This document shows, one piece after another, positions 20,910-35,336 of a stretch of DNA of 40,221 bases. The notes under the pieces were generated by a model. It did no database searches and had not been told where the DNA came from. It saw only the letters and a list, made by a program, of their open reading frames with translations. The stretch's first letter is position 1. Every line of letters begins with the position of its first letter. This stretch comes from Bacillota bacterium (GTDB lineage Bacteria > Bacillota > Limnochordia > DTU087). Position numbers and translations under genes: made by a program. The stretch lies in contig JAAZHE010000044.1 in assembly GCA_012510855.1 (NCBI GenBank), positions 1-40,221 of the forward strand. The letters are read 5' to 3'.

Positions 20910-22022
20910 ATGAGAAACAACCGCATAAGACTGCTCTTGGGCATCATCGTACTACTGGCCTCCATAGGTATCCTTTGGTTTTTTAAGGTCGCTGATTCAT
21001 GGCAGCGGATGGCATGGATCATCGCCGCACTAATAGTGAATTTCCTCGTAACCACCATTGGTGCATATTACGGCAAGCAAAAGCTGGAGGGTTATGAGGA
21101 GGCAATCAAGCAGCTATCGGAGGGCAGTTTTGCCGGCATTGATACATTAGCATCTAGTGATGACAGGATACTAGGATCCTTAGGTCAAGCATTAGCCACC
21201 TTGGGCAGCAAATTGCTGCAGTTCACAGACAACGCTAGACAGATCGTCACTGAACTTGTCCAAAGCGGAGAGGACCTCCTCACTACGTCGGAGGAAATCA
21301 ATGCATCTATACAGGAGGTTGCCAGTACTGCTAACCAGTTTGCCGGCACCGTTCAGCAAGTCAGTGCTACCTCGCGGCTGCTGGCGGAATCCTCCCTCCT
21401 AGTCGGAGAAACCACTATGGAGCACCTCAGCAGGATTGAAGATGTGGTCAATCAAATGAACCAGATTGAAAAAGCAATTATGGAACTGTCCAACATCAGG
21501 AAGGACCTCAGTGCCCGCTATGAGCAGATCAATAAGTTCGTGGGAGACATTACTGATATCGCTGAGCAGACCAACATGCTGGCCCTCAACGCAGCCATTG
21601 AGGCTGCCAGAGCCGGTGAGCAGGGCCGAGGATTTGCCGTTGTAGCTGAGGAGGTTCGTCAGTTAGCAGAACAGTCGGGAAGGGCTGCCAACGAGGTACG
21701 GCGTGTAGTTGCCAATATCGCTGAAGGAGATGCCAAAGCCGACAGTGCCCTGGAGATCAATATCAAGGCGATTCACGACGGCAGCCAGATACTTAGATCC
21801 ATGACCGAAAGCTTTGTGGAACTCAAGAAGAAAGTGGATGACTCAATCTCGCAAATGCAGCATATTAACACCGGTATACAACAGCTGAGCAGCGGCAGCC
21901 AGCAAATTGCAGCCGCAGCCCAAGAACAGGCGGCATCCATTGAACAAATTGCCGACAAAGCCAAGGTCCTCAGCGAGATCGCAGAACGGCTGCAATCCTA
22001 CATCCAGGAGTTCGGAAACTAA
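20910..22022 (+). CDS. Methyl-accepting chemotaxis protein (short sensory region)
   Basis: N-terminal TM helices; signalling tip [54 protein letters not shown] upstream of ATG at 20910. Confidence 0.95.
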
Positions 22023-22040
22023 CTTGCTTCATGGCGACAA

Positions 22041-22067
22041 ATCCCCGGCGGAGTTCCCGCGGGGGAT
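22041..22067 (+). terminator. Hairpin downstream of the MCP gene
   Basis: ATCCCCGGCGG-AGTTC-CCGCGGGGGAT (one mismatch), then TCTC; weak U-tract. Confidence 0.5.
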
Positions 22068-22090
22068 TCTCAATTGAAAGGAGCCTGTAA

Positions 22091-22463
22091 TGATCTTCGC
22101 TCCGACCAACGTGACTCCCTACAGATCCCACAGCAGCCTTCCGGCCACTACAGAACCTTACGGAAACCACGCTGATCTTTGCCCGACCTCCACGCATCGC
22201 TGTCGAAACCTATTGTGACCTCTCGACCACAATAGATCCCTAAGCGACCCATGGAGATCTTGGTCCGGCTAGTGCGGATTCCTTGAGCGCCGGCAGCGAC
22301 TTCACCAGCCGCTGCTGACACCTACGAAACCCGCAGTAACCTTGGCGCCGACCAAGACTGATCCTCAGGCGAACCAGCCTTGATCTTTGCTCGACCCATA
22401 CAGATCCGCTCTAGAACCTGTATGGATCTTAACTCGACCATTACAGACCCCTTGTCGGCAACC
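22091..22463. repeat. Degenerate tandem array, ~21-22 bp period, core about NGATCYTNNNTCGACC plus 5-nt spacer
   Basis: More than a dozen successive units, e.g. TGATCTTCGCTCCGACC, AGAACCTTACGGAAACC, TGATCTTTGCCCGACC, TGACCTCTCGACC, AGATCCCTAAGCGACC, TGATCCTCAGGCGAACC, TGATCTTTGCTCGACC, AGATCCGCTCTAGAACC, GGATCTTAACTCGACC, mostly separated by 5 nt. No plausible ORF. Confidence 0.75.
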
Positions 22464-22586
22464 CCATCTTTGGGGTGCACCCTTATCATGCCCCCCGCTC
22501 AAGGGAATATACCCAACCGGTGAGAAACCTCGCTGCCAAATTGAACCAGTCCAGTCTCCTGTACTTCACCTTTCTCCATCGGCTCG

Positions 22587-22622
22587 TTTTTCTAAGACCC
22601 AACTTTTTTCTAAGGCCCAACT
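22587..22622. repeat. Two-copy 18-bp tandem direct repeat
   Basis: TTTTTCTAAGACCCAACT (22587-22604) then TTTTTCTAAGGCCCAACT (22605-22622), one mismatch. Confidence 0.85.
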
Positions 22623-22727: not shown

Positions 22728-23378
22728 TTATGGGTGTTGAGCGCCTATGTAGTACGCCAGACGTTGAAGCTCCAGACTCAAATCGGCATTGGCCACGTGT
22801 ACGTCCTTGGGAACATCCAGCTTCACTGGAGCAAAATTAAGTATGGCCTTAACACCGGCCTCTACCAAGACATCGGTGATCTCTTGGGCGACATCGGCCG
22901 GCACCGTAACAATGGCCAGTCTAATATCTTTCTCCGGCACAACCCTAAGGATTTCATCTACGGAATAAATAGGCATATCTTCTATATAGGTTCCGATCAG
23001 TTCTGGTTTGATATCAAATAAGGCGACCATCTTGATGGTAAAAAGAGGATCCACCTCAAAACGACGCCGGTTATATCGAGCAAGGGCGTGCCCTAAGCTT
23101 CCGACCCCCACCAGTGCCATGTGGAGAGGCTCATCGAGATTGAGGATCTTGCGGAGTTCATCTTGCAGGAACTCTACGTCGTAACCTACCCCTTGTTTGC
23201 CGAACTCGCCAAACCAGGCCAAGTCTTTCCTGACTAGAGCCGGCCTCACACCTGCCCTCTTCCCTAGTTCATGGGATGAAATGCAAGTCTCTTTGCCTTT
23301 TACCTCTTCTAATACCCTCAAGTATATGGGTAGACGCCGAATCACCGCATCGGAGATTCCCTTCCAGGCCAACTTCAT
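22728..23378 (-). CDS. rex: Redox-sensing transcriptional repressor Rex
   Basis: IRRLPIYLRVLEEVKGK, ISSHELGKRAGVRPALVRKDLAWFGEFGKQGVGYDVEFLQDELRKIL, ALVGVGSLGHALARY, GVKAILNFAPVKLDVPKDV. Confidence 0.96.
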   Translation of the reverse strand: MKLAWKGISDAVIRRLPIYLRVLEEVKGKETCISSHELGKRAGVRPALVRKDLAWFGEFGKQGVGYDVEFLQDELRKILNLDEPLHMALVGVGSLGHALARYNRRRFEVDPLFTIKMVALFDIKPELIGTYIEDMPIYSVDEILRVVPEKDIRLAIVTVPADVAQEITDVLVEAGVKAILNFAPVKLDVPKDVHVANADLSLELQRLAYYIGAQHP

Positions 23379-32551: not shown

Positions 32552-33475
32552 TTAGAAACGTTCAGGATGCAGTATTCTTGCCAGCACCAGCAATGCATCG
32601 GCAAGTCGCGGCGTTGTCCGCACAAAGGGTTCGGAGTCTACTGCTATCACTCGGCCTTGCTGCACGGCCTTAACTGTCTGCCAGGCACTGCGGGCCAGCA
32701 CCTCATCCTCGTAAGGCCAAGTAAGGATAATCACATCGGGATTTCTCTCCACAACTAATTCGCTGCTGTACTCTACCCAGGCACCGGGGGCATCGGCCGC
32801 CAAATTGCGCCCTCCAGCCAATTCTATCAACTCCTGCATGAAGCTCCCAGGTCCGCAGGTCATCAGGGGCTCATTCCAGATCTCTACAAATACCAGCGGC
32901 CGCTCATCTTCCGGAAGATCCCCCAAAGCATCCTGTACATAGCAGATCTTTTCCTTCATTTCCGCCACTACTTCCTGGGCTTGATCCTGGGCTCCAGTGG
33001 CTTCACCTAGCAGCAACAGTGCATCCATTACTTCCTCAAGGTTAGTCGGATTGATGGCTAGAACCGGAAGCCCCAGCTCATCTAGCTTGGCGATGAAGGT
33101 CCTCACTACCTGGGCATCCCCGACGATCAGATCGGGCTCCAGCATCAAAATCTGCTCGTAGTTGAGATGCAGAGCATCGCCGATAATCGGCTTCTCCTCG
33201 GCTTCTGGAGGATAGTTGCTGTAATCGCTGACTCCCACCACCTTGTTTCCCAAACCGAGAGCATACAGGTTTTCGGTGACGCTGGGAGCCAAGGAGATCA
33301 ATCTTTCCGGAGCTTTCTCGATTAAGATTTCTCTATCCAAGCCGTCGATGACAACCACTGGGAATTCTGCGGCTTGTACAGAAACAGCCCCCAGCACCGT
33401 CAAACAGACACACAGAGCCAAGAACTTAGATAATGTTCCAACCAAATCTCTATACAGAAGCATCATGCTGGTCAC
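32552..33475 (-). CDS. btuF: ABC transporter substrate-binding protein (BtuF-like)
   Basis: Signal peptide; PERLISLAPSVTENLYALGLGNKVVGVSDYSNYPPEAEEKPIIGD, EPDLIVGDAQ; first gene after a cobalamin riboswitch. Confidence 0.88.
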   Translation of the reverse strand: MTSMMLLYRDLVGTLSKFLALCVCLTVLGAVSVQAAEFPVVVIDGLDREILIEKAPERLISLAPSVTENLYALGLGNKVVGVSDYSNYPPEAEEKPIIGDALHLNYEQILMLEPDLIVGDAQVVRTFIAKLDELGLPVLAINPTNLEEVMDALLLLGEATGAQDQAQEVVAEMKEKICYVQDALGDLPEDERPLVFVEIWNEPLMTCGPGSFMQELIELAGGRNLAADAPGAWVEYSSELVVERNPDVIILTWPYEDEVLARSAWQTVKAVQQGRVIAVDSEPFVRTTPRLADALLVLARILHPERF

Positions 33476-33599: not shown

Positions 33600-33787
33600 T
33601 TCCGCGAAGGTTGCTGGTTCATCCCTTAGGCAGGTCTCCTGGCTACCGGATCATCACTTTGCCATAGCCTTCCCCACAGGCTGCGAGTGGCTGATGGCCA
33701 TTCCCCGGTTACAGTGGCGCGACCGCGTGGTCACGAGCAAAAGGCTGCTCGCCCAACTTCCCTATTCTCCCCGGATACGGGGCACCT
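33600..33787 (-). ncRNA. Cobalamin (adenosylcobalamin) riboswitch
   Basis: Minus strand has the B12 box AGCCAGGAGACCTGCC (33629-33644), GCCACTGTAACCGGGGAATGG, 5' GGTGCCCCG and flanking stems; lies upstream of btuF-btuD-cobO-btuC. Confidence 0.95.
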
Positions 33788-33792
33788 AAGGG

Positions 33793-33829
33793 TTAATATT
33801 CACTTTTACCAAAAGGTCAATGGTTGACC
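33793..33829 (-). promoter_or_regulatory. Predicted promoter of the B12 operon with palindrome over -35
   Basis: Minus strand TTGACC (33815-33820) - 16 nt - TATTAA (33793-33798); GGTCAA-TGG-TTGACC palindrome (33815-33829) overlaps -35. Confidence 0.5.
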
Positions 33830-34773: not shown

Positions 34774-34915
34774 TTTCCAATCATTTTTCCTCCATAGATA
34801 TCCAGGTGAGTAGCACTCTACCAGTATTGTATTCCATACTTACCGCGATACTATACTTGGGCAAACCCCTGAGCTCAGACAGCGGGGTCAAAACCGACAG
34901 AGGAGGCGCCATCAC

Positions 34916-35281
34916 TTGGCAAGAACCAAACGCGAACAGCAGAATCAGCAAAACCAGCAGGTCTCCATGCAAGCTCGACAGACACAGCAGAATCGCCAGG
35001 CACAGCAGGCCCAGCAGACAGGTCAGCAGCAGACCCAGTATGAATTTGCCCAACCGCTGACCGGGCCCCAGAATCAGGGGCAGCAGAACCAGCAGCAGGT
35101 TGCTATGCAGGCTCAGCAGCAGGCTCGTCAGGCCCAGCAGGCCCGGCAAAGAGCCAAACAGCAGTCCCAGTACGAGTTCAGTCAACCGTTGACTGGAACT
35201 CAAAACCAGAGACAGCAGAATCAGCAGGCAAGCCAGATGGCACAACAGAAAGCGCAGCAGAGACCGCAGAATCAGTCGTAA
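34916..35281 (+). CDS. Candidate gamma-type small acid-soluble spore protein (Gln-rich repeat protein)
   Basis: 121 aa from a TTG start with AGGAGG (34901-34906) 9 nt upstream. Two long repeats and a partial third, each Q/N/A/R-rich and ending TQYEFAQPLTGPQNQ / SQYEFSQPLTGTQNQ; resembles the recalled SspE repeat QQVRKQNQQSA...QFGTEFASETN. Strong hairpin follows at 35337-35369. Confidence 0.65.
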   Translation: MARTKREQQNQQNQQVSMQARQTQQNRQAQQAQQTGQQQTQYEFAQPLTGPQNQGQQNQQQVAMQAQQQARQAQQARQRAKQQSQYEFSQPLTGTQNQRQQNQQASQMAQQKAQQRPQNQS

Positions 35282-35336
35282 CAACTCTATCACAAGCGTC
35301 GGAGTAAGAATCAGAACTCACAGGAACAGTCTCTCA

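Follow-up and report, generated by a model that had tools for sequence, protein, structure and literature searches.

Time and again, large structured RNAs of bacteria have opened up new biology; new classes that are widely distributed are seldom found. Sponge RNAs of the CsrB/RsmZ type carry many copies of one protein site per molecule, presented in GGA loops. Homo-oligomers are known for OLE, ROOL and GOLLD (PMC12286853), and one account places OLE in anaerobic Gram-positive bacteria (PMC9723947). Two non-coding RNAs of the forespore, CsfG and the Bacillus sRNA Bvs196, which has a stable fold, are transcribed under sigma-F and sigma-G (PMC9147052). CsfG (136 nt as entered in an Hfq study; Rfam-type ylbH element) is a short RNA of Bacillaceae with conserved CU-rich loops (PMC3574147). 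Bvs196 is 294 nt long, folds at -82 kcal/mol and acts on mRNAs, and a five-arm architecture was not reported for it (PMC9147052). The raiA motif (ModT) is a widespread structured non-coding RNA of Bacillota (PMC11706538) with a length of 205 nt (PMC12286853).

The locus described here was analysed within a window of 40,221 nt (the whole stretch of DNA under analysis). Its minus strand almost certainly encodes, between about 22478 and 22077, a stand-alone structured RNA of ~400 nt. This RNA resembles OLE, ROOL and GOLLD in being large, highly structured and stand-alone, differs from them by its five regular arms, a wobble code that is repeated from arm to arm and a forespore-type promoter, and by analogy may work as they do. 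It is ~3x longer than CsfG and has conserved helices and no CU-rich loops; identity with the CsfG/ylbH element was rejected on its length, its five arms, its conserved helices and the silence of the Rfam search. From Bvs196, which it resembles in its predicted forespore setting, it is set apart by description, not by sequence comparison. Like the raiA motif, it is a widespread structured RNA of Bacillota, but it is about 400 nt long and lacks an Rfam match. A way of working might be shared with CsrB/RsmZ, in which case the sites would be helix faces marked by G-U pairs. No Rfam 15 family reached its gathering threshold on the window's RNA or at any of 20 homolog loci, permissive Rfam searches, run on the window and on a single distant homolog, returned eukaryotic noise only, and the covariance models of OLE, ROOL and GOLLD did not match the RNA. 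The mainly open-access literature covered, on large RNAs of spores, on relatives of CsfG and on the discovery of large RNAs, contained no match, and an earlier mention is possible. As to its general kind, it belongs with the large non-coding RNAs.

The RNA gene lies between an MCP gene (plus strand, ending at 22022) and rex (minus strand, ending at 22728), which converge on it as the initial annotation had described. That annotation, made from the sequence of the window, had reported an unexplained non-coding tandem array at 22091-22463, and the array proved to be real. GATC occurs 9 times within it, compared with 2.07 times in dinucleotide shuffles (a count of 9 was seen in 0 of 1000), and its self-identity has maxima at lags 21 (z = 3.4) and 22 (z = 3.2), with no peak at lags 18, 20, 23 or 24. 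The ~21-nt period is made up of one helix strand (15 nt) and one loop (6 nt), and the complementary "spacers" that had been noted between units lie in mid-helix. Tandem Repeats Finder did not report the array, its units being strands of helices and not copies of a sequence. It was found once in its own genome by BLAST. The unit pattern GATCYTNNNTCGACC was matched 13 times in this genome, compared with 33 matches for the reversed control pattern; it is not enriched, and the unit is therefore not a dispersed DNA motif. The statements that the array is not coding and is not a promoter for its neighbours were upheld. Two further elements were seen in the gap: a hairpin at 22040-22068, directly past the MCP gene, is the probable MCP terminator, and two 18-nt direct repeats, 94% alike, lie at 22587-22622 between the RNA promoter and rex.

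Both strands of 22080-22480 were folded as RNA. The minus strand reached -227 kcal/mol (z = -14.4, with no shuffle near this value) and the plus strand -125 kcal/mol (z = -4.7), a difference that arises because G-U pairs form on one strand only. The earlier suggestion of a folded non-coding RNA was thus right about the RNA and wrong about the strand, the minus strand outfolding the plus strand. All three hairpins that had been named were recovered, CTATTGTG/CACAATAG as the outer helix of arm 4, GCAGCG/CGCTGC as the outer helix of arm 3 and CCATACAG/CTGTATGG as arm 1; the far more extensive minus-strand pairing mediated by G-U had been missed. The architecture consists of a closing stem and five arms made of 15-16 bp helices (Table 1). 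Nearly the whole RNA is paired, and the single-stranded linkers measure just a few nucleotides. By eye, the two sides of the additional 5' hairpin vary among relatives yet still pair; this hairpin stands outside the counted structure. A 42-codon antisense ORF with a GGAG-type ribosome site (22090-22218, plus strand) is open in several close relatives. It was rejected as a gene, its start being absent in two relatives and a third having other frame content, and is probably a by-product of the conserved RNA sequence.

Covariation was measured in two alignments. The first comprised ten genomes of one family including that of the window, with relatives at 67-89% blastn identity to the window. It was not fitted to a structure, and RNAalifold applied to it yielded 147 pairs. 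In these, 97.8% of cells were paired, compared with 32-46% in slid controls, and both sides had changed in 52 of the 147 pairs, compared with 5-10 in slid and 20.5 in shuffled controls. All five arms and the closing stem were supported, and the sequence of the terminal loops of arms 1 and 2 was not conserved. In a wider alignment of the 19 best matches, double changes were present in 53/63 pairs against 24-34 in slid controls; this alignment was fitted to the structure of the model, and its counts lean towards that structure. Compensatory changes above controls, the mark of a structured non-coding RNA gene, were therefore found, and they show that the base pairing of the five-arm RNA is under selection. 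Two covariance models of arms 4-5 were built, R1 and, from the 19-sequence alignment, R2.

Table 1. Features of the RNA gene and its promoter, in order of transcription (positions are those of the window)
Feature	Position	Strand	Remarks
-35 element GTATA, sigma-F/sigma-G type	22508..22512	-	motif enriched at the homologous place
-10 element CATGATA	22484..22490	-	window promoter GTATA-N17-CATGATA, 22512-22484
5' hairpin (CACCCC/GGGGTTG)	22458..22478	-	beyond the core; seen in the window's family; alignment columns 4-32
Closing stem, 5' strand	22436..22453	-	forms 18 pairs with 22078-22095, paired in 98.3% of cells
Arm 1 (15 bp helix, 6-nt loop)	22393..22428	-	helix 3; 99.3% of cells paired; 4 double-change pairs
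Arm 2 (15 bp helix, 6-nt loop)	22350..22385	-	helices 5-6; 7 double-change pairs
Arm 3 (two stacked helices, internal loop)	22267..22341	-	helices 7-8; 16 double-change pairs
Arm 4 (two stacked helices, internal loop, GNNA-type tetraloop)	22185..22259	-	helices 9-10; models R1, R2
Arm 5 (two stacked helices, GUA/GUA internal loop, GNNA-type tetraloop)	22104..22177	-	helices 11-12; models R1, R2
Closing stem, 3' strand	22078..22095	-	with the subsequent U-run, probable intrinsic terminator
3' U-run	22077..22079	-	short; weak in the window (UUU)

Arms 1-3 of the same RNA were matched by the arm 4-5 model as well, and the arms are therefore versions of one module. Counted from its base, the first helix of every arm has G-U wobbles at positions 3, 12 and 14. 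Among 63 homologs, wobble frequencies at positions 12/14 were 0.95/0.88, 0.91/0.75, 0.79/0.52, 0.63/0.84 and 0.95/0.84 for arms 1 to 5; those at position 3 were 0.48, 0.89, 0.66, 0.67 and 0.98, and most other helix positions stayed below 0.2. Arms 1-3 lay outside the search model with which the homologs were gathered. In the arm 4-5 alignment, the top wobble columns held a wobble in 60/63, 60/63, 58/62, 63/64, 59/64 and 60/64 sequences, most pairs adjacent to the fixed wobbles alternated between G-C and A-U, and one column kept its wobble in both orders (GU 49, UG 10). A G-U pair can normally be swapped for G-C or A-U, yet here it is fixed; selection therefore appears to act on the wobble itself, rather than on a Watson-Crick pair. 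Positions 3 and 14 are separated by 11 bp, which is one A-form turn, and so would face the same side of the helix. To our knowledge, a fixed wobble-pair code repeated in every arm is present in no other RNA family.

Related genomes were then scanned, the initial annotation having named further copies there, and covariation, as checks on its reading; both were found and the finding survived. R1 matched in 23 and R2 in 26 of the 73 genomes of the class. With R2 at E <= 1e-4, the RNA was detected in 162 of 399 genomes sampled evenly from the phylum, and in 116 of 267 genera. Hosts recovered by a pattern scan included Pelotomaculum, Desulfofundulus thermobenzoicus, Thermincola ferriacetica, Carboxydocella thermautotrophica, Thermanaeromonas and a Tepidanaerobacteraceae bacterium. 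Unconstrained minimum-energy folds had exactly five arms in 63 of the 65 homologs with a recognisable closing stem; this count is independent of the search, as R2 spans arms 4-5 only. A single copy was present in the window's own genome; elsewhere there was usually one and sometimes a few loci. At least two separate copies were seen in several genomes (that of locus L117, and G084, G104, G374, G383 and G442), those in L117 lying ~2.6 kb apart.

In the window's relatives the RNA adjoins rex at the same place. The gap between RNA and rex, short in the window, measures ~4-5 kb in G001, G003 (L077, L078) and G002, and in G001 and G003 this stretch opens with a gene for a periplasmic sugar-binding-type protein. 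The RNA stands divergent from an adjoining spoVAC-spoVAD pair in three families, and a fourth family has three genomes in which spoIVA lies ~1 kb away from it within one contig; in other families the RNA adjoins rex, a class I tRNA synthetase gene, a glycerate kinase gene or other genes. As neighbours differ between families, the RNA is a stand-alone gene. No conserved neighbouring protein gene that could point to a partner was found among the homolog loci. A cis-acting riboswitch or leader was rejected, the downstream gene being convergent in the window and the neighbours variable between families. A mobile or palindromic repeat element was likewise rejected, as genomes have one copy or sometimes a few; the mobile repeat family considered initially does not agree with one copy in this genome, the same place beside rex in relatives and the lack of any match to the RNA's exact pattern in viral contigs. 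In G004 (L006/L084), a genome from the window's genus, the 5' half of the RNA gene, with arms 1-3 and part of arm 4, has been lost and only the 3' half is kept. This remnant is a natural decayed copy and adjoins an unrelated gene with its own terminator.

Upstream regions were searched for G[ACT]AT[AT], a spacer, and then GGN2-3ANANT or [CT]ATNNTA. These patterns were chosen after the sequences had been viewed, and the controls weigh more than the raw counts. A motif of sigma-F/G type was present near the RNA start in 29 of 68 regions, compared with 1.3 on average in shuffles (at most 4 in 100 of them), 0 in antisense, 1/68 farther upstream and 0 inside the RNA. Measured from the closing stem, it was present in 27/65 homologs, compared with 0 for the opposite strand; most of the motifs stood at about -28 to -41, and those of the family with the extra 5' hairpin at -59 to -64. 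About half of the homologs had no clear match to the promoter patterns. Enumeration of gapped 4-mers in these AT-rich upstream regions gave GTAT..GGCA as the best (10 vs 0) and was weakly informative. In the window itself, -35 and -10 elements of sigma-F/G type stand upstream at the right spacing. Sites of sigma-F and sigma-G are alike. A U-run came directly after the closing stem in 37/65 homologs, compared with 8/65 in a control stretch. By these features it is strongly supported that the RNA has its own promoter of sigma-F/sigma-G type and that the transcript would end at the closing stem; such a promoter would hence place transcription in the forespore.

SpoIVA was encoded in 336 of the 399 sampled genomes, in 157/162 of those bearing the RNA and 179/237 of the others (Fisher p = 5e-10, uncorrected for relatedness). 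Three of the five carriers without SpoIVA are genomes of 61-80% completeness. On the strength of the promoter motifs, the near-restriction to SpoIVA genomes and the spoVA or spoIVA neighbours, expression of the RNA in the forespore is very probable. The RNA was undetected in about half of the sampled genomes with SpoIVA, and because of this and of the lost 5' half in G004 it is not essential to sporulation.

With nearly all of the molecule paired and the linkers short, antisense action is unlikely, and the RNA would instead act structurally. Its repeated wobble-tagged helices could serve as identical docking sites, making it a multivalent scaffold or a titrating sponge for an RNA-binding spore protein. 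Such a scaffold or sponge might shape the spore core, or set the free level of the protein, during dormancy and outgrowth. Because the wobble code is repeated across the arms, a scaffold or sponge is favoured, with assembly of RNA alone as the main rival. The whole chain, from a forespore RNA to a scaffold or sponge with a putative protein partner, is proposed tentatively, at somewhat less than even confidence. Stated more broadly, and to be held just as cautiously, the locus may define an uncatalogued class of endospore RNA whose five arms with a shared wobble code form a higher-order structure of the forespore core, alone or with a dedicated protein.

Self-assembly of the same forespore RNA into an RNA-only oligomer or cage, with G-U faces and internal loops as RNA-RNA contacts, is rather unlikely. 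It would agree with the size class, the ornate fold and the modular arms, with the GNNA-type tetraloops of arms 4-5 and the conserved 3x3 internal loops, and with the precedent of OLE, ROOL and GOLLD (PMC12286853), and repeated sites could equally serve RNA-RNA contacts; however, no conserved kissing loop is evident, and the terminal loops of arms 1-2 vary in sequence. A forespore regulatory sRNA that pairs with mRNAs, as Bvs196 or CsfG might suggest, would match those RNAs in predicted compartment and sigma factors (PMC9147052, PMC3574147), but the conserved letters lie mostly in helices of an almost fully paired molecule with linkers of a few nucleotides, and this role is distinctly unlikely. 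Equally improbable is transcription from some other promoter with no tie to the forespore, the link to sporulation being a phylogenetic coincidence. The richness of the phylum in spore-formers and the absence of a clear motif from about half of the homologs would allow this; enrichment of the motif over every control at a fixed distance, the co-occurrence with SpoIVA and the spoVA or spoIVA neighbours speak against it. G-U pairs often bind metal ions, and a large RNA with heavily conserved G-U pairs could be a forespore ribozyme, or use its wobble sites to bind a small molecule or a metal; conservation is, however, even across the repeated arms and picks out no single core, none of the known families of ribozymes or riboswitches was matched, and the idea is very unlikely. 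A DNA-level element, such as helically phased protein sites on one DNA face (as had first been suggested) or iterons, draws on the ~21-bp period and the GATC enrichment but has a negligible likelihood: what is conserved is RNA base pairing, the pairs covary, the near-invariant G-U pairs form on one strand and are mismatched on the other, the fold is strand-specific with promoter and terminator features at its minus-strand ends, and the unit pattern is not enriched in the genome over its reversed control.

The favoured reading, a forespore scaffold or sponge, concerns an RNA that occurs in ~40% of the genomes sampled from a phylum in which spore-formers abound and that is absent from Rfam, and it gives a specific prediction of cell type, the forespore. 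If true, it raises the question of whether spores hold a dedicated structural RNA; we know of no earlier large structural RNA of bacterial spores, and this would be the first. Cultured hosts exist, one of them with a complete chromosome, and the prediction is thereby directly testable.

Elsewhere in the window, a cobalamin riboswitch (33612-33804, minus strand, 92 bits) was the sole Rfam match at gathering level and stands before a minus-strand ORF at 32552-33475. A CAG-codon-rich tandem repeat of 132 bp in 1.8 copies was located at 34985-35227, inside overlapping ORFs near 34781-35293.
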